Positions 37,082-57,472 of a stretch of 64,000 nt of DNA are shown here, piece by piece. Under the pieces are notes generated by a model, which worked only from the letters and a program-made list of their open reading frames with translations, did not search any database and was not told the origin of the DNA. Source of the DNA: Rhodopseudomonas sp. GTDB lineage: Bacteria > Pseudomonadota > Alphaproteobacteria > Rhizobiales > Xanthobacteraceae. A program made the translations under genes and the position numbers. The stretch spans positions 62,001-126,000 of the forward strand of contig WGNB01000010.1 in assembly GCA_016124795.1 (NCBI GenBank), read 5' to 3'. The first letter of the stretch is position 1; each line of letters opens with the position of its first letter.

Positions 37082-37351
37082 TTACTTTTTTCGAAATCGC
37101 ACGCCCTCACCCGAATGCTCTGACGCGGCGAAGAACTCGACGCCGTAAACATCCTCCAACACACGCTGCAGATCTCGAAGCACCTTCAGCCGGCGCGGAT
37201 CCATTTCCTCACTGTCGTCCGCTTCAATCTTAGTAATTGTTTTCTGGGTCACGCCCGCCTTCTCAGCCAACGCTGCTTGACTAATTCCAATCAAACCGCG
37301 CGCCGCCCGAATAAGGCGGGGCGAGGGCCAGATTTTCGACGTCTTTACCAT
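37082..37351 (-). CDS. XRE-family transcriptional regulator
   Basis: An 89-residue protein made of one Cro/CI-type helix-turn-helix: 'IRAARGLIGISQAALAEKAG' and 'VTQKTITKIEADDSEE', then a short C-terminal extension. It diverges from the 37458 gene, with the palindrome 37426-37442 between them, and probably represses both. Such regulators usually control mobile-element or defence operons, which fits the neighbouring genes. Confidence 0.9.
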   Translation of the reverse strand: MVKTSKIWPSPRLIRAARGLIGISQAALAEKAGVTQKTITKIEADDSEEMDPRRLKVLRDLQRVLEDVYGVEFFAASEHSGEGVRFRKK

Positions 37352-37425
37352 TTGTTAAGCATGCCCGCCACTTCGTACGGTTTTTAGTACCGAAGTTCTT
37401 GTAAATCAAATCCGCGGACCTTATT

Positions 37426-37442
37426 GGTTATATATTATAACC
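37426..37442. promoter_or_regulatory. Palindrome, candidate operator of the XRE regulator
   Basis: GGTTATA and TATAACC arms around TAT, in an AT-rich gap between the divergent regulator and HNH-like genes. It ends 15 nt before the rightward start codon, where a repressor would block initiation. A second weaker dyad (cggt/accg) lies at about 37378-37392. Confidence 0.55.
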
Positions 37443-37457
37443 GAAAATGAGCCGCTC

Positions 37458-37784
37458 GTGGACTATCTCAACTACATCTCAAGCCATCGTTGGCGACAGC
37501 ACCCTGCCCGGCTCGCAGAGCTTGAGGCCGCCGACTTCCGCTGCCGGGTTTGCAATGACGACGGCGCCGGCAGCGCACTCGAAGTCCATCACCGCACCTA
37601 CGCAAACCTCTTCAACGAACAAGTGGGCGATCTCACCGCGCTGTGCAGGACCTGCCATCGCGTCGTGACCGACCATTTGCGCCGTGTCCGTTTTGGCCAG
37701 CGTCAACCGAGTCACGCGAACATCCGCACTGCGCTGGACAACCCATCCTCACTTTTTGACCCAACCGCCAAGGAGGCAATCTGA
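37458..37784 (+). CDS. HNH endonuclease-like protein
   Basis: A 108-residue protein with a zinc-bound HNH-like core: 'RCRVCNDDG' (CxxC), 'LEVHHRTYANLFNE' (the HH pair and Asn) and 'LTALCRTCHRVVTDH' (CxxCH). This order fits small HNH nucleases. The start is GTG at 37458, 15 nt after the palindrome. Its stop overlaps the next ATG by 1 nt. It may act on invading DNA, but it could equally be a DNA-binding protein. Confidence 0.75.
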   Translation: MDYLNYISSHRWRQHPARLAELEAADFRCRVCNDDGAGSALEVHHRTYANLFNEQVGDLTALCRTCHRVVTDHLRRVRFGQRQPSHANIRTALDNPSSLFDPTAKEAI

Positions 37785-38356
37785 TGTCTACTAAAACTCT
37801 CCGCGTTCGTCTGAGCGGCGAACGTCCGCTCCTGATGCACAGCGCTCGGCTTGCCGATCCGCTCGATCCGATCACGGTCGAACTCGACCGCCTGACGCGC
37901 AAGCGCGACAAGACCACCGCCGACCACGAGCAAATCTCCAAGGTCGAGTGGCATGGCGGCCTCTGGCTGAGCGATGGCAAGCCGTGCATTCCCGCGGAAG
38001 CGATCGAGTCCGCCTTCGTCACCGCCGCCAGGACCCGCCGCAAGGGCCCGCAGGCCAAGGCCGGCTTCTTGTGCAAAGTGTCGCCGCTCCTGGAATACGA
38101 AGGGCCGACGGACTTGGTGTCGTTGTGGAACGACAAGCACTTCCAGTTCCGCTTCCCGGTCTCGGTCAATAGCTCGAAGGTGATGCGCACGCGGGCGCGC
38201 TTCCCGACCTGGCACGTCACCGCCGAGGTCGAGTTCCTCCCGAGCCTGCTCAATCGCAACGATGTCCTGGAGATCTTCGAGATCGCCGGCTTCCGCGAAG
38301 GCCTGGGCGACTGGCGTCCGAAGTTCGGCAAGTTCTCGGTGACGCCGATCCACTAA
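37784..38356 (+). CDS. Unrecognised 190-residue protein, mobile-element type
   Basis: A 190-residue protein without signal or membrane helices. It begins 'LRVRLSGERPLLMHSARLAD', continues 'GKPCIPAEAIESAFVTAART', and ends 'GFREGLGDWRPKFGKFSV'. The pattern (a beta strand, then a Gly-rich loop, a conserved IPAEAI helix start and a C-terminal GDWRPxxGxF) recalls RAMP-like or phage proteins whose function is not known; I do not claim a family. It is coupled by a 1-nt overlap to the HNH-like gene. The pentamer array follows directly. Confidence 0.6.
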   Translation: MSTKTLRVRLSGERPLLMHSARLADPLDPITVELDRLTRKRDKTTADHEQISKVEWHGGLWLSDGKPCIPAEAIESAFVTAARTRRKGPQAKAGFLCKVSPLLEYEGPTDLVSLWNDKHFQFRFPVSVNSSKVMRTRARFPTWHVTAEVEFLPSLLNRNDVLEIFEIAGFREGLGDWRPKFGKFSVTPIH

Positions 38357-38357
38357 T

Positions 38358-38427
38358 CACGGCACCGCGTGGCGGGGCGTGGCCCGGCGAGGCATCGCAC
38401 GGCCCGGCGTGGCGAGGCAGGGCGAGA
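38358..38427. repeat. Pentanucleotide-period GC array (about 14 units)
   Basis: From the stop of the 37784 gene the sequence reads in five-base steps: cacgg, caccg, cgtgg, cgggg, cgtgg, cccgg, cgagg, catcg, cacgg, cccgg, cgtgg, cgagg, caggg, cgaga. Almost every unit starts with C and ends GG or CG. It is followed directly by the GAAA hairpin. Period and composition are too regular for chance. Confidence 0.85.
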
Positions 38428-38444
38428 GCCCCTGAAAAGGGGCT
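38427..38444 (+). repeat. Hairpin with GAAA tetraloop
   Basis: Arms agcccct and aggggct enclose gaaa, a GNRA tetraloop, so a very stable RNA hairpin is possible. It sits between the pentamer array and the 38507 gene and could work as a transcription attenuator or mRNA-stability element in the operon. Confidence 0.65.
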
Positions 38445-38506: not shown

Positions 38507-39106
38507 ATGCGTAAGCAAATAGTCGAAACCATTGGTGCGGGACGGGCTGCGCCGAATCCCGAAGACCGGTCGGCGGATCGCCGTCGGCCGGCCGGCAAAC
38601 CGGCGAAAGCAAGCAAACGGGTACAGTCGCCATGGCCGTTCAATGTGGACGACGTCACGACCCTGGAATGGTGGCGCACGATGCCGGCCGATCATCTCAG
38701 CGACGTCGAGCGCCGTCATCTCGGCGCCACCTTGGAAAAGATCTGCATACTGAAAGATCACCGATGGCTGTCTGCTTTGGGGGGAGACGCTGCAGCGAGC
38801 ATCGCCATCGCGATCGGAGCCATGCCCACCGATCAGGTGACTCTCGAAGTGGACCTGGCCATGTCGGCCTTGGCGCTCTGCGCGCTGGACGGCAGCGCCG
38901 GCGCCGCCCTGGTCTTGGCGCATGTCCTGCGGCGCACCCCGCTCGATCACCCTTTTGGTACTGATCTTTCAGCGTCGTGGCTGGCGCTCAACCTTTGCCG
39001 CGCCTTGACGGCGAAACGGCACTCCGCCCTGCCGCGCCGCGGTTCAGGAAAATCGAACGCGCCCAACAACGGGCAGACCTTTCCTGGCCTGCCGGTGTCG
39101 GCATGA
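38507..39106 (+). CDS. Unknown protein opening the phosphoesterase-protease-nuclease operon
   Basis: A 199-residue protein with a basic, flexible N-terminus, then a helical domain from about residue 45 ('VTTLEWWRTMPADHLSDVER', 'ALALCALDGSAGAALVLAHV'). No known family is recognised. A frame open upstream over the pentamer array is not used; the ATG at 38507 has GAGAG nearby. Its stop overlaps the next ATG (ATGA), so it is translationally coupled to the metallophosphoesterase. Confidence 0.65.
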   Translation: MRKQIVETIGAGRAAPNPEDRSADRRRPAGKPAKASKRVQSPWPFNVDDVTTLEWWRTMPADHLSDVERRHLGATLEKICILKDHRWLSALGGDAAASIAIAIGAMPTDQVTLEVDLAMSALALCALDGSAGAALVLAHVLRRTPLDHPFGTDLSASWLALNLCRALTAKRHSALPRRGSGKSNAPNNGQTFPGLPVSA

Positions 39107-39873
39107 AGGTTCAGATCTTTTCCGATCTTCATGCCGACGTCGCCCGACCGCAGCCGATCGCGGTGGCGCCGGACGTCGACGCGGTCATCGTCGCCGGCGA
39201 CACATGTGAAGGCGCGGAAAGCGGCTTTGCTCGCCTCCGCAAAAACCTACCGATGCAAATCCCCATTATCGCCGTGCTTGGCAATCATGAGTTCTACCGG
39301 CGCTGCTGGTCGGATGAACTTGCGCTGGCGCGTGCTGCTGCCCCGCTCTACGGCATCCATCTTCTGGAAAACGACACCGTCGTCATGGGCAACGTGCGGT
39401 TCGTCGGCGCCAGTCTGTGGACCGACTACGCTTTGTTCGGCGAACACAATTTGCCGCGCGCCATGCTCGTCGCTGGGGGCGGTCTCAACGACCATAAGAG
39501 GATCAAGTGGTCGAAACAGCCATGGCGTCGGTTCCGGCCACAGGAGGCGTTGCTTTTGCACAAGCGCTCGCGCACCTTTATCGAGACGACGCTGGCGGCG
39601 CCCTTCGACGGCGCCACGGTCGTGGTGACGCACCACGCCCCTCACCCGGGCTCTATCCATTCTCGTTACAAGTCTGACCTCCTGACCGCCGCCTACGTCT
39701 CGGACCTGGCGGCTCTGATCGAGGCGGGCCGGCCCCATCTCTGGGTCCATGGGCATGTGCACGAGAGCTTCGACTACATGGTCGGCGCTACTAGGGTGGT
39801 CTGCAATCCCCATGGTTATGGCACTGAAAACTCTCGGTTCGACCCGGCGCTGGTGGTGGAGATCGGGTCATGA
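39103..39873 (+). CDS. Calcineurin-like metallophosphoesterase
   Basis: A 256-residue protein with all metal-binding motifs of the family: 'FSDLHAD' (D-x-H), 'IVAGDTCEG' (GD), 'LGNHEFYR' (GNHE), 'VVTHHAPHP' (H) and 'VHGHVHES' (GHxH). It should hydrolyse a phosphate ester or phosphodiester using two metal ions. The substrate is unknown; the exonuclease and ATPase-protease in the same operon point towards nucleic acid or a nucleotide signal. It overlaps both neighbours by 4 nt. Confidence 0.9.
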   Translation: MKVQIFSDLHADVARPQPIAVAPDVDAVIVAGDTCEGAESGFARLRKNLPMQIPIIAVLGNHEFYRRCWSDELALARAAAPLYGIHLLENDTVVMGNVRFVGASLWTDYALFGEHNLPRAMLVAGGGLNDHKRIKWSKQPWRRFRPQEALLLHKRSRTFIETTLAAPFDGATVVVTHHAPHPGSIHSRYKSDLLTAAYVSDLAALIEAGRPHLWVHGHVHESFDYMVGATRVVCNPHGYGTENSRFDPALVVEIGS

Positions 39874-42074
39874 CGCGGGTGCAAATGCTGGCATCATCAC
39901 CCAGGCCGCTTGCCGAGGTACTGGTCGACGCCATGCGTGCTAGCGGAAATTCCCCGTTCGAGCTTCGAACATTAGCATCCGACGATGACGACGACCAGCC
40001 TCAGTATCAGCTGCGCCTTGAGGATAACGACGAAGGCGGCGTCGACAGCGGGTCGGCCCGCATCTTGCGGCCGGACGAGGTCGCCGTCGCCGTTCTGCTG
40101 GGTCAGGCACTCGACCGGAACCGCGATGTGCTGGCCAAGATCCGGGACCGTGACATGGTGGCGATTATCGAGGTCCCGAGTGACGACTATATCGACATCG
40201 TCGAGCGAATATTTAAACGTTTCGTCCTCGGAGTTGACGCGCCGGTGCTTGACGGCGACGGCTTATCGCTGCTGCACAGCGGCGTCGCAGCGCGATGGAC
40301 GGCCGCCATTTTTAGGCGCCGCGACGAAGGTAAGTCGAAAAAGAGGGAGTTCAGCGGCAACGCCGAGCTGGCGGCAGCGATTCAACAGCGCTGTGCAATC
40401 ATCGGTATTGCCACCGAACCCGATCGCCTGCTTCCGCAGAATTTGGTTCGGATGTCAGAACATCGCTTTGTTTTGGGAACGATCGACGGTTCGACGATCG
40501 CCGCAGTGATTGAGGCGATTACGGGCCGCGCTCCTGACGCAGGCGAAGCCGCGCTTATCCGCGGCGCGACCCTGGAGATCTTAAACATCGCGGTCCGGGC
40601 CGACTTCGGCGCCGATCGCTCTGTAGCCCGGCTCCAACATCTTGTTGGTCGCATTGACCGCGATGTGGACACTGGCCCCCTGCTGTCCGACATGCACGGG
40701 CTGGGCGCCGCCAAGTCGTGGGGCATGGCCCTGATCCAGGATCTGCGTGACTACGCCGGCGGCCGGCTGGCATGGGGCGATGTCGACAAGGGTTGCCTGC
40801 TCACCGGCGCGCCCGGCACCGGCAAGACCTCCTTCGCGCGGGCCCTCGCGAGAGAGGCGAATGTCCATTTCATCGCCACCAGCTACGCCCAATGGCAAGC
40901 TCATCGCGAGGGTCACTTGGGCCACGTGACGCAAGCCATCCGCAAGGCCTTTTCCGAGGCCTTGCTTCAGAGCCCTTCGATTCTGTTCATCGATGAAATC
41001 GATACGATTCCCGCACGTGGCACAGGCAAGTGGAACGACGACTGGTGGACTTCGATCACCAACACGTTGCTGGAGTGCCTCGACGGGTTCGAGCGACGTG
41101 AAGGCGTCGTCGTTATCGCTGCGTGTAACGATCCGGCGCGGCTCGACCCCGCGTTGGTGCGTCCGGGACGTCTCGACCGCCATATTGAGATTCCGCTGCC
41201 CGATGTTCCTTCGCTAATCGGCATTTTCCGCACCCATCTTGCCACCGATCTGGCCGACGTCGACCTGCGCGAAGTGGCGCTGGCCGCTCGCGGCGGCACC
41301 GGCGCCGACGTCGAACGCTTTGTGCGCGAAGCACGGCGGCGCGCTCGCCTCGCCAACCGCCCGATCAACCGGGCTGACCTCCTCGTCGCCGTACGCAATG
41401 GTCAGCCAGAATGGCCTGCTGATCTGCGCCGCCGGATCGCCTACCATGAATCCGGACACGCCATTGCCTTCCTGGCCCTCGGCATCGCCGACCCCCAAGC
41501 GTTGTCTATCGGTGGCAGCGGCGGCCTTGCCGAAAGCGACCTCGGAGAAATGCGCGCGATTACTCGTTCCCACCTGGAGAATTTCATTGTCGCGCTTCTC
41601 GCGGGGCGCGCCGCCGAAGAACTCATCTTCGGCGAGGTAACCGCAGGCGCCGGCGGCAGCGAGGGGAGCGATCTGGCACGCGCCACGGCGCTGGCGACAC
41701 GTCTGGAGACAGCTTACGGCCTTGGAGCGCTCGGGCTGGTCTGCATGGCCGGTGGCGTGAACGAACGGGACCTGCTTCTGCTCGACACGCTGCGTTCGGC
41801 AGTCGGAGGCACCATCGATCGCGCCTATGCGGCGGCGCTCGACCTTCTCCGCCAGAACCGGCACGCGCTGGAGGCCCTTGCCACTGCCTTATTCGCCGGC
41901 GGTTATCTCGATCGGATGGATATTCAGGCGATCCTGGTTCATTCGCCGCTTGCGGCCCAAACCTTGGTGGCATCGCCGACAATCCTGCCCACTGAAACTC
42001 TCACGACGCCGGGCGAAGATACGCCTATCGCCGACGTCCCGCCCTCCAGCTCAACCTTCAAGAATCAGGCATAG
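39870..42074 (+). CDS. Soluble FtsH-like AAA+ ATPase with M41 zinc-protease domain
   Basis: A 734-residue protein. Residues 1-290 are an unknown N-terminal domain rich in acidic residues. The AAA+ module has Walker A 'GAPGTGKTSF' (about 312), Walker B 'ILFIDEIDTIPARG' and the FtsH second-region-of-homology pattern 'LVRPGRLDRHIEIPLP'. The protease domain has 'AYHESGHAIAF' (HExxH, about 525) and the third zinc ligand in 'SEGSDLARATALA'. FtsH proteins are membrane-anchored, but no membrane helix is visible here, so this is a cytosolic relative. All catalytic residues are present. It likely unfolds and degrades a specific target. Confidence 0.88.
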   Translation: MTRVQMLASSPRPLAEVLVDAMRASGNSPFELRTLASDDDDDQPQYQLRLEDNDEGGVDSGSARILRPDEVAVAVLLGQALDRNRDVLAKIRDRDMVAIIEVPSDDYIDIVERIFKRFVLGVDAPVLDGDGLSLLHSGVAARWTAAIFRRRDEGKSKKREFSGNAELAAAIQQRCAIIGIATEPDRLLPQNLVRMSEHRFVLGTIDGSTIAAVIEAITGRAPDAGEAALIRGATLEILNIAVRADFGADRSVARLQHLVGRIDRDVDTGPLLSDMHGLGAAKSWGMALIQDLRDYAGGRLAWGDVDKGCLLTGAPGTGKTSFARALAREANVHFIATSYAQWQAHREGHLGHVTQAIRKAFSEALLQSPSILFIDEIDTIPARGTGKWNDDWWTSITNTLLECLDGFERREGVVVIAACNDPARLDPALVRPGRLDRHIEIPLPDVPSLIGIFRTHLATDLADVDLREVALAARGGTGADVERFVREARRRARLANRPINRADLLVAVRNGQPEWPADLRRRIAYHESGHAIAFLALGIADPQALSIGGSGGLAESDLGEMRAITRSHLENFIVALLAGRAAEELIFGEVTAGAGGSEGSDLARATALATRLETAYGLGALGLVCMAGGVNERDLLLLDTLRSAVGGTIDRAYAAALDLLRQNRHALEALATALFAGGYLDRMDIQAILVHSPLAAQTLVASPTILPTETLTTPGEDTPIADVPPSSSTFKNQA

Positions 42075-42082
42075 ATGTCGCT

Positions 42083-43012
42083 ATGAATATTCATGCTCCG
42101 TCCGTGATATCTCAAACGCCAACCAATGCTGACGACGCCGAACGGCTGGCGCGCCAGCTTGAGGCAACCGGCAACTACAAAATCCTCCGTCGCCTGGTCC
42201 CGAGAAGTCCGACGCCGACGCCCGCCGGCTATACCGGCAAGATCGGTATCATCCTCGATTTTGAGACGACAGGACTCGACCCGACGAAGGATGAGGTCAT
42301 CGAGGTCGCCATGGTCAAATTCTGGTATTCGGAAGCTGACGAGATCACCGGCGTCAGCGATGTTTTCCAATCCTACAGTGAACCGTCAGTCCCCATCCCG
42401 GCCTTGGTCACAGACCTAACCGGCATCACCAACGAAATGGTCGCCGGCCACCGGCTCGATATCGCCGCGCTGGAGGCATTTGTTTTCGACGTCAACATTG
42501 TCATCGCCCATAACGCCGGGTTCGACAGGAAATTCGCCGAGCGGCTATCACCAACCTTCAAGCATAAGCACTGGGCCTGCACCCAGACCGAGATCGACTG
42601 GCGTAAGCTCGGCTTCGGTGGCGCAAAGCTCGGTTATCTCCTGGCCGATATCGGATATTTCCACAATGCGCATCGCGCCATCGACGATTGCCATGCCCTC
42701 GTCGAGCTCCTGTCTTATCCACTGCCGGCGGCAGCCCGGTCGGTATTTACCGAACTGCTCGACTGCGCACGTCGAACGACGGTCCGCGTCTGGGCGCAAG
42801 GCTCACCTTTCGACTTGAAAGACACGCTGAAGGCCCGCGGCTATCATTGGAACGACGGATCGGACGGACGTCCAAAGTCCTGGTTCATCGACGTCGCCGA
42901 AGACAAGCGCGACGCCGAGCTTAACTACCTGAAGAAAGTAATCTACCAGCGCGAAGCCGATATCGAATGCCGGGCAATGACCGCGCTCGAACGATTTTCC
43001 GATCGCGGATAA
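42083..43012 (+). CDS. DEDDh 3'-5' exonuclease (DnaQ-like)
   Basis: A 309-residue protein. The exonuclease domain (about 50-215) has ExoI 'ILDFETTGLDP', ExoII 'VIAHNAGFDRKF' and ExoIII 'HRAIDDCHALVELL', so the DEDDh set is complete. The C-terminal 80 residues ('VRVWAQGSPFDLKDTLKARG', 'KSWFIDVAEDKRDAEL') form a small domain seen in some DnaQ-like proteins of alphaproteobacterial mobile DNA. It should remove 3' nucleotides from DNA or RNA. It follows the protease gene by 8 nt and ends the operon. Confidence 0.88.
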   Translation: MNIHAPSVISQTPTNADDAERLARQLEATGNYKILRRLVPRSPTPTPAGYTGKIGIILDFETTGLDPTKDEVIEVAMVKFWYSEADEITGVSDVFQSYSEPSVPIPALVTDLTGITNEMVAGHRLDIAALEAFVFDVNIVIAHNAGFDRKFAERLSPTFKHKHWACTQTEIDWRKLGFGGAKLGYLLADIGYFHNAHRAIDDCHALVELLSYPLPAAARSVFTELLDCARRTTVRVWAQGSPFDLKDTLKARGYHWNDGSDGRPKSWFIDVAEDKRDAELNYLKKVIYQREADIECRAMTALERFSDRG

Positions 43013-43247: not shown

Positions 43248-45543
43248 TTACTGACAGAGTGATTTCATCCGCGCAAAATGATGAGCGTCCAATTTCTCCA
43301 TAAGAGCAAACATCGACCACGCCGCGTCCCGAATCTCTTCGATCGTCATCGAAGAAAACGCAATGATGTCGTCTAGGTTGTCACCGTGCGACTCCAATTC
43401 GGCCAACCTAAGAAGAGCATTGATGCGCGCTTGGTCGAGACCGCAATCCTGCACCATTCGGTGCCTAAGTTTGTTACCCACGCCATCAGGCCCTGGGTTT
43501 TTAAAGTGCAGAAAAAGCTCCAGAATCTTGCGTAGAACGTTTGGTAGCGTATAGCCTAAGTATGGGTTGTCAGGTTCCATTTCGACAAACTTGAACACCA
43601 ACGAACATAGGTAGCGGTACTCAGAATCGTAGTCCCTTAACAACTTCGGTAGAGCTTTGATCGCCGCGCTTCTGACTGATGGCGACACTGGGGTCGTTTT
43701 CAGAAAAAACAGTGCAGCAGTCGGTACTTTGTCGGGCTTGTTGGCGTCCGCGAGCTTAGACCTAAGCCATTTCTTCGTTTCGTTCATAAATTGCAGGTTA
43801 TGGGTGAGAATGATGACCTGTGCGGCGTCTTCTAACGCCAGACGAAGCAGATTGAATGCGTAGTTGAGGGCTTTGCTATCAAGGCTAGAAATCGGGCCGT
43901 CTATGATGGCAATGAGGTCCTTTTTCTTTCGACCGTCTTCCTCCAGCTTGGACAGGAAATAGCAAATTGCGAGTGCCGTCTTTTCACCCTCGCTCAACGG
44001 GCCTAAGATAGGTGTCCCGTTACGTTGTATTTTATAGCCTTCCTCGACCGCAGCTAGGCTGAGCTCTGAGTGACCGAGATAGATCGCCAGCAGCTTATTG
44101 ATTGGCTCGATCGCCAAGTTATGCGCGCGAAGTCGCTGGCGCGCTCCGTCCAACTTCATCTGAAGCGTTCGCACCAGCGCCGTGCGAACCTTAAATTCGT
44201 TCGTTGCTCTGCCCAGTTCGGCCGTTAGTTCATCATAGCGCGCTTTGCCTTCCAGTAGGTGGTGAATTTTGAGTGCACCCGCGGCCTCGGCTTTTCTGCT
44301 CAAATCGCGACGCCTTTTCATTGTGCGCCTCAATATGAGTGTTTGCCTGCTCGATAAGATCGTGCAACAGGGTTTCTTGGCGTCGCGCTTCCACTAAGTC
44401 GATTAGCGAGACGTCGATCGCAATGTTGGGGGCACGTAGCTTTGCATCCAGAGGTCCGCGGACCTGTGTCAGAATCATGTGCAAGGCGGATGTGCAGGCG
44501 ATCAATTGCTCGCGCGCCGCGCCATACTTATCAGCCACGCTCGCGTCCAGAGCGACGGCGGCCGGCAACCGCAGCTGAAATTTGTCTATTTCGTCAAAGT
44601 ATTCCGCCCTAGCTTCGTGCAGTGACTGCACCATTTCGATGGTTTTCTCAAAGCGAGCATCAATACTGGCTCGCAGGGCGTCGGCACGTTCGCCAGTAAA
44701 ATTGTTTCCGCAAAAAAGGCAGTTCTCCATAGAGTGGGACGTATGGTAATCGAGGCCTTCCTTCACCCACTTGAGCATCTCCGCATGCTGCTTCAATTCA
44801 TCAAGCGCAGCCGCCGCGAAACACTCCATGCAAACAGCTTTGATCTGACCAAAATAGGCTGACAATTCGACGGGCAGGCCTTCGATTGGTGCGACTGTGC
44901 TCGCGGCAGAGGTTCGGTTTATCAACTCCTTCTTGGCTTTTATCTGTGCATCCCCGAGCGGTTGTTGAGCCGCTAGGTTGATGGAGCTGTAGTCGTGCTC
45001 AAGCTGCGTCGCGACATACCGTCTTCCGAGGTTCAATTCATTTGCTATGAGGCGCGCCAGGTCTCTCTTAAATTCAGTGAGCTCACTAGTAAGAGAAGCT
45101 TGTTGGGTTTCCGCCGTTTGCTGCGCACGCTTTCTGCGGTCAAGTCTCTCGGTGGCCCGATCGACATACTCTGATAAGCGCGCCTGTTCCTGACCGATAA
45201 AGTATACAGGGCTCGCCTGTCCCTCACGCCATCTCAGGTTTTCTTCTATGAAGTCCTCATTGAACACAACAATGGTGGGATTTTTTACACCGTTACACGA
45301 TGCATCCGTGAAATCAGGCCCTTCCGTGCAGCAAATTGAAAACTCACAATCTTCCGGCAACAGGGCCGATTTAGCGCCTTGCTCAATAGAGCGAAGGATG
45401 CGGGACAACGTAGTTTTTCCGCAGCCGTTGAACCCGTAGATCAGGTTAAACCGACGAAAGTCGGGGACATCCGCTGTATGGGTATATTCTGCAAATACAC
45501 CCGCGCGGTGGAGCGATTGAAAATTTTTGACCAGCGCCGCCAT
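43248..45543 (-). pseudogene. AAA_13-type ATPase gene, frameshifted
   Basis: Two minus-strand frames form one protein. The first (from ATG 45543) has Walker A 'GFNGCGKTTLS' (about 37-46), a coiled coil, and a CxxC hook 'CLFCGNN' (about 275). After an A4 run at 44292-44295 the second frame begins 'KAEAAGALKIHHL' and goes on to the signature 'LSEGEKTALAICYFL', Walker B 'IAIIDGPISSLD' and H-loop 'VIILTHNLQFM'. Removing one A restores the frame. The usual acidic residue after the Walker B Asp is Gly, a further defect. Relatives include RloC/PrrC-type anticodon nucleases and other defence ATPases; no nuclease domain is confirmed here. Confidence 0.75.
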
Positions 45544-45623
45544 AAAGCAATCCAAACATCTGCGCTATTGGCTAAAATTTTCAACCAGTGGTAACTATAG
45601 CTAGTGTGTTTAGGCGAGGCAAC

Positions 45624-51613: not shown

Positions 51614-52552
51614 CTAGGCGGCGGGTACGGAGGCAGGCGTCGGTTCGAGCGCTGCCAGCCGTTCGCGCAGAGCTTCGCACTCCGCCTCGGCCGCCCGGCG
51701 CCGCTCCACTTCGGCGCCGTAGCGTTGCGCGAGAATGGCGGCGTCCCGCTGCAGGGCTCGGTACGGCTCGGCGTAGCGCTCCCAGCCACGTCGGCGGGCG
51801 TCGTCCTCAATGAAAATGCGCTTATACTCGATTTCATCGAGCATGCGCTCCTCCTTCGCTGCCATGGCTCGCTCCATCTGATGCTGCCGGCGGCTCACTC
51901 GCTGGCGCCTGGGTCCGAAGCGGTCGTGCCGGAAAAATTCGCCGACGTCGCGATGGAAGACGTTTTGCCATTCCCGCATTCCCTGGCGATAGGCCCGCTC
52001 CCTCTGCTTCAGCCCAGCGCCCGCCGCCGCGGCCGCGACCTTGGCGCGGCGGCCGGGATGGATCGCGTTGATGTCGAGCCGTCCGTCGTCCCCTAACTCA
52101 GGGACCACGTAGAAATGTATATGCGGAAAACGCTCGTCGCGATGTTCGACTGCCGACTTGAGATGGTCGCCGAACTGCTCCCGCAGCCACTCAAGCGTCA
52201 TCTGCTGCCACAAGGAGTGCACGTCGCACTCCACCGGGTCCTCGCGCAGCGACTGGCGGTCCCACGGATAGCTCACGACACCTGCCAACAGACAGATGCC
52301 GTCCTTGCGCAACCGACGGAATTTTTTGCCTCCGTCGCGGGCTCGGTTGGCGCGCTCGGTCGCAAGTCGTCCCGCTTCGATCGGCGACACTCCATGGACG
52401 ACCTTCGGCTGCGCCGGATAGGCGACATGATTGGCCGCGCCTGGTGACCGGGCCCCTTCCTCGGTGATCCCCTCAACGCAGGACCATCGTGGTTGACCGG
52501 CGCGCGGCGAGCGGCCGTAAGTCCCCAGGTGCAAAAACTGACAGCTTGGCAT
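51614..52552 (-). CDS. MobV-family relaxase (Mob/Pre)
   Basis: A 312-residue protein with the MobV landmarks: an N-terminal relaxase fold and 'HRDERFPHIHFYVVPE' (HxDExxPHxH, the metal-binding motif). A long C-terminal coiled coil (about 200-300) follows. The start at 52552 has AGGAGG 5 nt upstream. It should nick DNA at an origin of transfer, probably upstream (52553-53064), to mobilise the element. No conjugation genes are nearby, so the element would rely on a helper. Confidence 0.85.
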   Translation of the reverse strand: MPSCQFLHLGTYGRSPRAGQPRWSCVEGITEEGARSPGAANHVAYPAQPKVVHGVSPIEAGRLATERANRARDGGKKFRRLRKDGICLLAGVVSYPWDRQSLREDPVECDVHSLWQQMTLEWLREQFGDHLKSAVEHRDERFPHIHFYVVPELGDDGRLDINAIHPGRRAKVAAAAAGAGLKQRERAYRQGMREWQNVFHRDVGEFFRHDRFGPRRQRVSRRQHQMERAMAAKEERMLDEIEYKRIFIEDDARRRGWERYAEPYRALQRDAAILAQRYGAEVERRRAAEAECEALRERLAALEPTPASVPAA

Positions 52553-53064
52553 ATTGACCTCCTGTTTCGCTGTTGGGCAGCCAACAGCTTTGAAATTCAT
52601 TTAACAGCCGAACCCTGAAAGCCGGAAATGTTTTTACAAAATATTTTAGACGAAAATTTTTTGGTTCCCATATGCTACTGACCGACTAGTTTATGAGTGA
52701 ATTTGTTTGAAAACTAACTTTGAGTCACTTGCGGCTTACAGATGCTGCCACTACGAAAATTCACGGCGCACCTATTGAACGCGTCAGATTCGTTACCGTC
52801 CGTGCGGCCTCAGCTGTCAACAGGGGGCCGATGCCGTGCGCCTTGTATTGTGATGGCCCCTGTTGACACGAGCGACCAGGACCATGCGCACTTCGCATTC
52901 GCAGACGGTTTCCGAGTGGAGGCCGCCCTTGAGCCAAGGAAATCCGATGCAACGACACAAATGCGGCACCAGCGATCACTGCTCGCCTAGTAGCCTGGTC
53001 TGCAGTAGATGGTCGGAAACGCGCTCCGAACAAACACCTGCCGCAGGGAGCGACCATCCGGAGG
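52553..53064. other. Region upstream of MobV gene: candidate transfer origin
   Basis: About 510 bp with no convincing gene. Bases 52610-52740 are strikingly AT-rich, with aaaatatttt and short dyads; 52815-52868 is a long inverted repeat. Both features are usual in oriT or replication regions placed next to relaxase genes. Confidence 0.45.
52815..52868. repeat. Long inverted repeat, 14-bp arms
   Basis: Left arm TGTCAACAGGGGGCC (52815-52829) and right arm GGCCCCTGTTGACA (52855-52868) are complementary apart from one extra G; the loop is 25 bases. It lies between the MobV and DUF3987 genes. Confidence 0.85.
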
Positions 53065-54973: not shown

Positions 54974-56269
54974 TCATTCAATAGATTGCCTCGCCGCACG
55001 TCGGCTCTCCTGTACACGCTTTGAAATCGCTGGAGCCTTGCGCTTGTAGACACGCCGCGTTGTGGCCTTGCTGCCGTGACCGGCGGAACTTGCGAGGTCA
55101 TCGTCATTAGCGCCGCCGGCCGTGGCTTCGGTAATGCCAGATGCCCTGGTGTCCATATTCCAAACGGCTGGAGGAATGCCGGCCTCCTTCGCGTATCGGC
55201 GCCAAGCCTTTCCGAACGCGCGATGGTCGTGCCAGGGCGTCCCGCGCGAACTTTGAGCTACAGGTGCATTCGGAACGCTCCGGTCAATGAAGGGCAGACA
55301 GCGCATAATCAGTTGACACTCATCGATCAGATGCACCACCGGTTGGCTCGTCTTCGACGTCCGGACCACGAGCGTCTTGCCCGGAGCGATCATGTCGAGA
55401 GTCAAACCTGACCACACGAGCCCACCCTTCCTGATTTCGCCGGGCTTGAGTACGTAGTCATCGGTTTCAGAGCGCCACTGGCCGATGACGTCTTTCTGCC
55501 GCAACATGGTGTCCCAATGTGTTGCTTGGGACAGTGCCATTGCCACGTTTTTCTTGCTCAGGCAGAAATCCACAATTGCTTTCGCTTGATCGTAGGACAT
55601 GGTCTCCTCGCGCGGAGCGTTCTTACCAAAGCGAATTTTTTCCATTCCCACACGCAGCCGCTGGCAGTGCGGAAGATCTGACTGAACGCCAAGGTCGAGA
55701 ACCACCTTCACCATCTGGATGCAGCCGTACGCCCGCCGCACGCGCTCGGGTCCGCCCTTTTGAGCGGGCTCACGCCAGCGGCGGTAGCAGGTCCTAAACC
55801 ATTTAGGTGAAATGCAATCGACACGGCGAGAACCGATGGTCTCTTCGACGATGCGGAGCCAATCTTCGTAATTTTCTTGGGTGTTCCCTTTTAGATCCTG
55901 GAAGCCGCTTTCCGGGTCCGATCGATAGAGCTCAATCACGCTGCGCAAAGTCCCATCGAACCTCGCCGCCAAGCGCTTGCGATCGTGAAGATTTCCGTCC
56001 GCCCATGAGAGCAGTGCCTGCTGCTCCCGCGCACAAATCTCTTCAATGGTGCTGGCCGTTGCGTGGACGCCTTCGGGTGTCCTGGCGTTAAGGTCGACGT
56101 GAATCCGCACAGTGCGCGGCTTGTACCCTTTGAACTCCTCCGCTTCGTCGACCGCCCAGTAAACGTTCCTCTCCAGCTTGCGCCGGATGACCTTGAGACC
56201 CGGCGCGTCGAGTTCGACACGCTGGTCGCCGATCTCCAAGATGGACTTCCGCGGCCGCAGCGTGCTCAT
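54974..56269 (-). CDS. Tyrosine recombinase (integrase)
   Basis: A 431-residue phage-type integrase. The catalytic residues are recognisable: Arg in 'DTMLRQKDVI', Lys in 'VRTSKTSQPVV', second Arg in 'MDTRASGITEA', His in 'SAGHGSKATT' and Tyr in 'RRVYKRK'. The N-terminal half is a core-binding helical domain. It overlaps the small gene upstream by 4 nt. It is the integrase nearest to the intact tRNA-Arg(ACG), which is therefore the likely target, although no second copy of the tRNA end was found in the window. Confidence 0.87.
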   Translation of the reverse strand: MSTLRPRKSILEIGDQRVELDAPGLKVIRRKLERNVYWAVDEAEEFKGYKPRTVRIHVDLNARTPEGVHATASTIEEICAREQQALLSWADGNLHDRKRLAARFDGTLRSVIELYRSDPESGFQDLKGNTQENYEDWLRIVEETIGSRRVDCISPKWFRTCYRRWREPAQKGGPERVRRAYGCIQMVKVVLDLGVQSDLPHCQRLRVGMEKIRFGKNAPREETMSYDQAKAIVDFCLSKKNVAMALSQATHWDTMLRQKDVIGQWRSETDDYVLKPGEIRKGGLVWSGLTLDMIAPGKTLVVRTSKTSQPVVHLIDECQLIMRCLPFIDRSVPNAPVAQSSRGTPWHDHRAFGKAWRRYAKEAGIPPAVWNMDTRASGITEATAGGANDDDLASSAGHGSKATTRRVYKRKAPAISKRVQESRRAARQSIE

Positions 56270-57395: not shown

Positions 57396-57472
57396 TGGCG
57401 CGCCCGAAAGGATTCGAACCTCTGACCCCCAGATTCGTAGTCTGGTGCTCTATCCAGCTGAGCTACGGGCGC
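57396..57472 (-). tRNA. tRNA-Arg (ACG)
   Basis: A full cloverleaf on the minus strand: acceptor GCGCCCG pairing with CGGGCGC, D-arm (GCTCAGCTGGATAGAGC), anticodon arm with loop CTACGAA (anticodon ACG), five-base variable loop, T-arm (AGAGGTTCGAATCCTTT) and encoded CCA. It decodes CGU and, after deamination of the first anticodon base, CGC and CGA. It marks the border between mobile DNA on the left and core genes on the right. Confidence 0.97.

Follow-up and report, generated by a model that had tools for sequence, protein, structure and literature searches.

What does a bacterial operon do that places a phosphoesterase, a protease and an exonuclease one directly behind the other? This question is raised by a locus of Rhodopseudomonas sp. 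(NCBI GenBank assembly GCA_016124795.1, contig WGNB01000010.1, positions 62,001 to 126,000 of the forward strand; we refer to this whole stretch of 64,000 nucleotides (nt) as the window). Four genes in a row encode g1, a calcineurin-like metallophosphoesterase (MPE), a soluble AAA+/M41 zinc protease and a DEDDh 3'-5' exonuclease (Table 1). We propose, at a probability of roughly 0.42, that this operon is a mobile machine of modular build, under XRE control, that attacks nucleic acid and is most likely directed against other mobile elements or phages. Its architecture is well supported by gene content and conservation; its function we infer.

The four genes are as tightly packed as an initial annotation of this DNA had described: the open reading frame (ORF) coordinates reproduce their positions, with two 4-nt overlaps followed by an 8-nt gap before the exonuclease. 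The assigned identities also stand (calcineurin-like phosphoesterase, PF00149; AAA+/M41 protease; RNase_T/PRK09182 exonuclease, which scores 400.7 bits against NCBIfam PRK09182/NF006615, cut-off 207). The statement that the operon lies behind an XRE regulator is right in that an XRE gene is present; however, this gene is divergent and about 1.1 kb off, and two genes co-directional with g1 intervene that the annotation left out, encoding a small HNH nuclease and a phrog_4652-like protein (P4652). The order of the full unit is divergent XRE, palindrome, HNH, P4652, period-5 array, g1, MPE, protease and exonuclease. At the limits used, g1 has no match in Pfam, PADLOC, PHROGs or NCBIfam, and a PDB sequence search gave none either (best E 2.6); for MPE the PDB search gave nothing useful. 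As had been claimed, the operon matches no named system in these four collections. No single PADLOC system is matched by all of its genes (g1 and P4652 are without match, and the others match different models), and we did not find this operon in a literature search.

The operon is accessory: at E <= 1e-55, 13 of the 43 genomes of the genus have the protease (in G329 and G338 it is of a distant type, and in G299 it is a fragment). Co-occurrence was scored at 70 protease loci (numbered with L): the window, 12 from the genus, 39 from the order, 9 from plasmids and 9 from viral contigs, the last being the soluble type among 50 viral contigs retrieved by the protease; at least one locus, L084, looks like a membrane FtsH. 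Partner genes were scored as present if they lay within 5 kb of the protease. We found g1, MPE, protease and a 3'-5' exonuclease together at 10 of the 70 loci. The exonuclease is of the PRK09182 type in the window, L001, L003, L190, L191 and L194, of the PF10108 type in L009, L049 and L070, and of the SbcB/ExoI type (PF08411) in L005. L192, at a contig end, has MPE, protease and exonuclease, and L083 combines MPE and protease with DUF6634 and an exonuclease of the PF10108 type but has no g1. Near the protease, g1 and MPE are present at 9/12 and 10/12 genus loci, 8/39 and 4/39 order loci, 2/9 and 3/9 plasmid loci and 0/9 and 4/9 viral loci, respectively. DUF6634 (PF20339), for which a PDB sequence search gave nothing useful, is present at 1/12, 14/39 (and once more on the opposite strand), 3/9 and 2/9. 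At 20 housekeeping FtsH loci we saw none of g1, MPE, DUF6634, the exonucleases, f8 (see below), HNH or P4652. Because the partner models were built from loci of this sample, detection in it is favoured; the viral contigs, which were retrieved by the protease alone, are more independent. The four genes that the initial annotation had grouped by their spacing hold together in these counts as one conserved unit.

In reverse searches, the g1 family model A1 (an alignment of 16 sequences) matched 13 places, spread over 11 of the 297 genomes from the order; 9 of these places are model-building loci, all beside the protease. The four independent places are L088, by an M41 protease, L085 and L086, by another AAA+ gene with cluster partners, and L087, without. 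Against plasmids, the g1 of the window gave five places in four records; at the best place per record, three of four adjoin another AAA+ protein. We did not find g1 in the phage collection or in the viral contig scan. Because these searches land beside AAA+ genes, g1 is tied to AAA+ machines; it would be a partner of the protease. The exonuclease model gave 23 places in 23 genomes of the order sample, and at the 20 examined of the 22 other places, g1, MPE or protease lay beside none. The MPE model gave 33 places; of 23 examined, 6 adjoin g1 or protease, and 5 further ones in three loci (L094, L096, L102) lie with a weaker match to a stand-in AAA+ family described below. Since these searches find places without the cluster, both the exonuclease family and the MPE family serve in other settings as well. 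Conserved co-occurrence, which the initial annotation had named as a check on its model, thus holds in part, and the four genes are more than singly scattered, contrary to what would have refuted that model: the full set recurs and three of four independent g1 places have AAA+ partners, whereas the exonuclease and MPE families also occur apart.

The protease had been described as carrying a complete zinc catalytic set and no membrane helix, and both points are borne out. In the family alignment, the HExxH residues are kept in 63/63, 62/63 and 61/63 proteins and the third zinc ligand, Asp601, in 64/64 (counts are of non-gap rows among 66 aligned proteins, a few of them near-duplicates, 10 of 76 having been removed earlier for a hydrophobic stretch). 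The top 19-residue hydropathy of the N-region is 1.46 as compared to 2.33-2.73 in 20 housekeeping FtsH proteins, and the protease has no membrane segment. Residues 50-265 may form a degenerate AAA-like domain; they align weakly with the sensor/lid half of the protein's own AAA domain at an hhalign probability of 36 (E 3.7e-4) in a single comparison. In L085, L086, L175, L176 and L177, a gene behind g1 encodes an AAA+ protein of 520-590 residues, with MPE present too in L085 and L176. Pfam, run on the proteins of L085 and L086, detects an AAA domain and no protease domain in this stand-in, and the stand-in family aligns with the AAA domain of the protease (probability 98) and not with its M41 domain. 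Both AAA+ kinds are present in L049, L141 and L194. Because the AAA+ slot of five g1 loci is filled in this way, proteolysis is not required in every variant. The exonuclease slot is filled by three families, RNase_T/PRK09182, DNA_pol_B_exo2 (PF10108) and Exonuc_X-T_C (PF08411), suggesting that it is 3'-5' exonuclease activity that is wanted there; in L005, a 20-residue PRK09182-like remnant is still found downstream of the cluster with the SbcB/ExoI-type enzyme. Two further arrangements were observed. On the Rhizobiaceae plasmids of L014 and L015, the AAA part and the zinc-protease part are two adjacent genes, and in L091 (6302-7989) five DUF6634-like ORFs stand in a row, followed by an MPE gene.

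In the front part of the unit, a divergent XRE gene is present at 5/12 genus, 8/39 order, 1/9 plasmid and 2/9 viral protease loci and at 1/20 housekeeping FtsH controls. The operator-like palindrome of the window has a counterpart in L191 with identical ends and a different centre (TTGGTTACACGGTGTAACCGA). HNH is paired with a phrog_4652-like gene also in L011, L069, L176, L177, L191, L221 and L222, and in L011 and L222 the pair occurs without g1. A conserved gene of about 290-340 residues, f8, in which one D is invariant and a K-R-G motif recurs, substitutes for HNH-P4652; it is present in L001, L003, L005, L051, L054, L068, L085, L190 and L197. At the f8-type loci L003, L005 and L197, a different palindrome, ACCG[TC]ACA[TG]GTGCGGT, lies at the corresponding place, and it was not found in the f8-type L001 and L190. 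f8 has no family match, and a PDB sequence search gave nothing useful; we did not adopt its assignment as a PD-(D/E)XK nuclease, for which no more than a D...xK-like motif had been picked out by eye. Between the window and L191, identity is 73% for XRE, 86% for HNH, 94% for P4652, 71% for g1, 72% for MPE, 73% for protease and 80% for exonuclease. Between the window and the f8-type L001, it is 36% for XRE and 32% for g1 as compared to 79% for MPE, 77% for protease and 81% for exonuclease, and between L191 and L001 the values are 28, 29, 84, 79 and 83% in the same order. Because the pairwise identities diverge in this way, the front half, from XRE to g1, has a history different from that of the rear half, from MPE to exonuclease. 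By these comparisons, the operon consists of two exchangeable halves, one comprising XRE, either HNH-P4652-array or f8, and g1, and the other MPE, protease and exonuclease.

The phrog_4652 profile covers residues 1-187 of the 190 of P4652, which has no match in Pfam, NCBIfam or PADLOC. A conserved glycine-rich C-terminal segment, G-[LI]-G-D-x-x-P-x-[FY]-G-[RK]-F, may resemble that of RAMP/Cas7-type repeat-binding proteins. Between P4652 and g1 lies an interval of 150 nt that is 90% identical in L191 with frame-breaking indels, and it is therefore probably non-coding. The array within it has 9/10 GGC units in its best stretch as compared to at most 3 in five shuffles. We found that a 28-base pattern of this array retrieves seven viral contigs (six distinct, as L228 and L231 have the same sequence), all with a same-strand P4652 homologue. 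Broader pattern scans covered at least 120 viral loci each and were scored with a P4652 model whose members came exclusively from the window, plasmids and phages. With (GGCNN)8, 85/120 loci among the matches listed have a P4652 homologue, 83 on the same strand and 85 within 1 kb, at a median distance of 61 nt. With (GCGNN)8, 80/120 among the matches listed have one, 72 on the opposite strand (equivalent to CGCNN on the coding strand) and 79 within 1 kb; we therefore discarded GCGNN as a negative control. With (GTTNN)8 the corresponding figures are 28/120 among the matches listed, 27 and 26, the 27 being on the same strand, and with the period-6 control (GGCNNN)8 they are 2/120 among the matches listed and none within 1 kb. 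None of the 50 viral contigs retrieved by the protease has a P4652 homologue. Among 12 P4652 genes fetched by P4652 or otherwise, 9 have at least 6/10 one-triplet period-5 units within 1 kb and the remaining 3 (L177, L221, L223) have 5 units each, as judged against a lenient control of five shuffles per locus with the best triplet only. In these scans, period-5 arrays predict phrog_4652 homologues, and the strand bias of the arrays points to a reading of RNA or of a single DNA strand.

Nearest P4652 relatives of at most 50% identity have the same array triplet in 115 of 156 cases, as compared to 56.7 on average and at most 78 in shuffles, although these shuffles ignore relatedness and phage base composition, so that shared descent or G+C may explain part of the agreement. 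The hairpin 3' of the array in the window is kept in L191 despite a changed loop and frame, hairpins similar to it are visible in some array loci, and the fold z-score is only -2.05, with no match in Rfam. We did not adopt the reading of the array as a structured RNA that ends in a hairpin throughout: the 3' flank is more folded (lower) than the 5' flank in 46/111 GGC, 40/110 CGC and 74/113 GTT arrays, which is not the expected excess for GGC and CGC. We tentatively propose that the P4652 family and the pentanucleotide arrays form one unnamed phage and mobile-element system, in which the protein, possibly a filament whose subunits each span 5 nt, would bind RNA or a single strand of DNA and read it as one constant triplet with two variable bases, the triplet being set by protein lineage; together with HNH, it would be the exchangeable recognition part of the AAA+ protease-exonuclease operon of the window. 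A literature search, a weak test, did not find the link between array and P4652. On an Enterobacter hormaechei plasmid (L220, 2995-3099), a nearly pure (GGCGT)n run adjoins an antirestriction gene.

In the mechanism that we envisage for the operon as a machine against invaders, a divergent XRE repressor would keep it silent. The front half (HNH, P4652 and array, or f8, followed by g1) would be the exchangeable nuclease or recognition part, and the rear half, with MPE, the AAA+ machine (which in most cases includes an M41 protease) and the 3'-5' exonuclease, would be constant. The front half would first recognise or cut invading nucleic acid; MPE and exonuclease would then degrade the ends; and the AAA+ machine, with g1 as adaptor or substrate, would finally remodel or remove bound proteins and limit the reaction.

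The operon does lie beside defence-type genes, as the initial annotation had stated: its neighbours in the window are a ProA gene (NF058533, 2057.6 bits, cut-off 1500) and an AAA_13/PDC-S06-like gene. The latter is spread over two ORFs of 440 and 361 residues that overlap in different reading frames, and it is probably a broken copy. Short prokaryotic Argonaute genes are present in L005 (15407-18372), L085 (2168-5682) and L177 (12634-14040), with TIR partners in L005 and L085. Some related proteases have Tn7-like transposition genes, namely those for Mu-type transposase, TniB and TniQ, in their vicinity, and members of the transposase family occur at 14/57 loci; loci with such genes include L010, L049, L055, L058-L060, L062-L064, L066, L067, L071 and L073, among others. 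Further along the window are a Mob_Pre-like gene, just under its cut-off (25.4 bits, cut-off 25.5), and a tRNA-Arg gene, together possible marks of an integrated element. A guess that positions 54974-56269 encode an integrase found no support in Pfam and was dropped.

Table 1. Features of the operon and its surroundings; positions are those of the window.
Feature	Position	Strand	Match or remark
g1, 199 residues, ATG start	38507..39106	+	no family match; conserved helical-looking core of ~100 residues
Calcineurin-like metallophosphoesterase (MPE)	39103..39873	+	PF00149 E 6.6e-13; phrog_1649 E 6.7e-53
Soluble AAA+/M41 zinc protease	39870..42074	+	PF00004 E 2.2e-33; Peptidase_M41 PF01434 E 8.4e-20
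DEDDh 3'-5' exonuclease, PRK09182 subfamily	42083..43012	+	RNase_T PF00929 E 2.9e-20; NF006615
XRE/Cro-type regulator, divergent	37082..37351	-	HTH_3 PF01381 E 2.5e-8
Operator-like palindrome TTGGTTA-N7-TAACCGA, 21 nt	37424..37444		between XRE and operon, 13 nt before HNH start
Small HNH nuclease	37458..37784	+	PF01844 E 7.9e-5, 23.2 bits, cut-off 21.4
phrog_4652-like protein (P4652)	37784..38356	+	phrog_4652 E 2.2e-42
(GGCNN)n period-5 array, 13 units, coding strand	38361..38425	+	best stretch 9/10 units GGC
Hairpin AGCCCC-loop-GGGGCT, 3' of array	38427..38444	+	kept in L191
AAA_13/PDC-S06-like gene, split	43248..45555	-	
Mob_Pre-like gene	51614..52600	-	
tRNA-Arg gene	57396..57472	-	

Several observations weigh against a machine that attacks invaders. 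The exonuclease is missing in L193 (where a DUF2130 gene follows), L195, L012 and L069, and was not seen within 1.6 kb after the protease of L002. Distant proteases are mostly without the full set, the 39 order loci having g1 at 8, MPE at 4 and an exonuclease at 3. Enrichment near defence genes, another point on which the initial annotation would have relied, was not seen over an accessory control. In a PADLOC scan (E <= 1e-25) of neighbours at 19 cluster loci excluding the window, 120 proteins gave 31 families (Argonaute at three loci, AbiEii, GajB, IetS and others), as compared to 48 families from 119 proteins at accessory control loci (SIR2-HerA, Gabija, PDC-S06, SAVED and others); cluster and control loci are both defence-rich. 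Finally, MPE and P4652 belong to families that are common in phages, which would also suit a role of phage type or in transfer.

The last point leads to the alternative that survives best, namely that the operon is a helper of the mobile element that carries it, whose enzymes, derived from phages, would process DNA, aid establishment or counter defences while the element is transferred. MPE has 150 and P4652 153 relatives among phage records (the latter by tblastn), P4652 and HNH occur without g1 at the two loci named above, and several copies lie on conjugative plasmids, two of them adjoining type IV secretion system genes. A phage MPE-like protein is reported to damage host DNA and to silence anti-phage genes (PMC12287305), which we count in favour of this role. 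However, protease relatives are also chromosomal, near Tn7-like genes and not always in transfer regions, and a transfer role leaves the XRE-controlled exchange of front halves unexplained; we consider it rather unlikely.

Less probable still is an addiction or stability module like IetAS, in which AAA+ ATPase and protease would act as a toxin-antitoxin-like pair that retains the element. IetA/IetS of pTiC58 and S026/S025 of SGI1 are such pairs, of an AAA-ATPase antitoxin and a subtilisin-like toxin (PMC5006074), and the AAA domain of the protease does match IetA models (PADLOC E 1.5e-20). However, the AAA domain is all that the two have in common, its NCBIfam score of 74 bits against IteA (NF042959) is far below the cut-off of 510, Pfam finds no S8 (subtilisin-like) serine protease domain in the four operon proteins, and MPE and exonuclease would be superfluous in a two-gene module. 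The model of the initial annotation, in which the AAA+ protease would release or activate a nuclease or phosphoesterase on infection, fits the intact catalytic residues and the translational coupling of the protease to MPE and its closeness to the exonuclease, but we consider it very improbable given the five g1 loci whose AAA+ protein has no detected protease domain (two examined by Pfam) and the exchange of the exonuclease for members of unrelated families, which fits poorly with one specific cleavage site.

If the operon is active against invaders, its interchangeable front modules would draw on a soluble machine of the FtsH kind, on a phosphoesterase and on a 3'-5' exonuclease that can itself be replaced. 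The single enzymes are ordinary; what is unusual is their assembly and the link to the array. The pairing of array and P4652 is the most novel part, with a function that we infer, and the array scan provides a handle on a phage protein family: a simple DNA pattern often finds the genes, on the expected strand, and its triplet tracks protein relatedness.

Compared to known systems, the operon is like IetAS, a system of stability and anti-phage function, in having an AAA+ ATPase and a protease on mobile elements, with similar AAA domains; in contrast to IetAS, it has the ATPase and an unrelated zinc protease in one chain, together with nucleases, MPE and g1. RAMP/Cas7-type proteins and TIGR-Tas arrays are presumably alike in setting, as the glycine-rich segment of P4652 lies beside a periodic array, whereas the window array has a period of 5 nt, no spacers and no sequence match to them. 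With FtsH, the protease shares the AAA-then-M41 order, HExxH and the zinc Asp, but it has no membrane anchor and a different N-domain, and it scores 215.7 bits against the FtsH equivalog TIGR01241, below the cut-off of 600. The exonuclease is a member of the PRK09182 exonucleases, whose other examined members in the order sample stand apart from the cluster. The phage proteins of phrog_4652 and phrog_1649 are matched by P4652 and MPE, and in the window both are encoded, together with an AAA+ protease, in an accessory operon of a bacterium.

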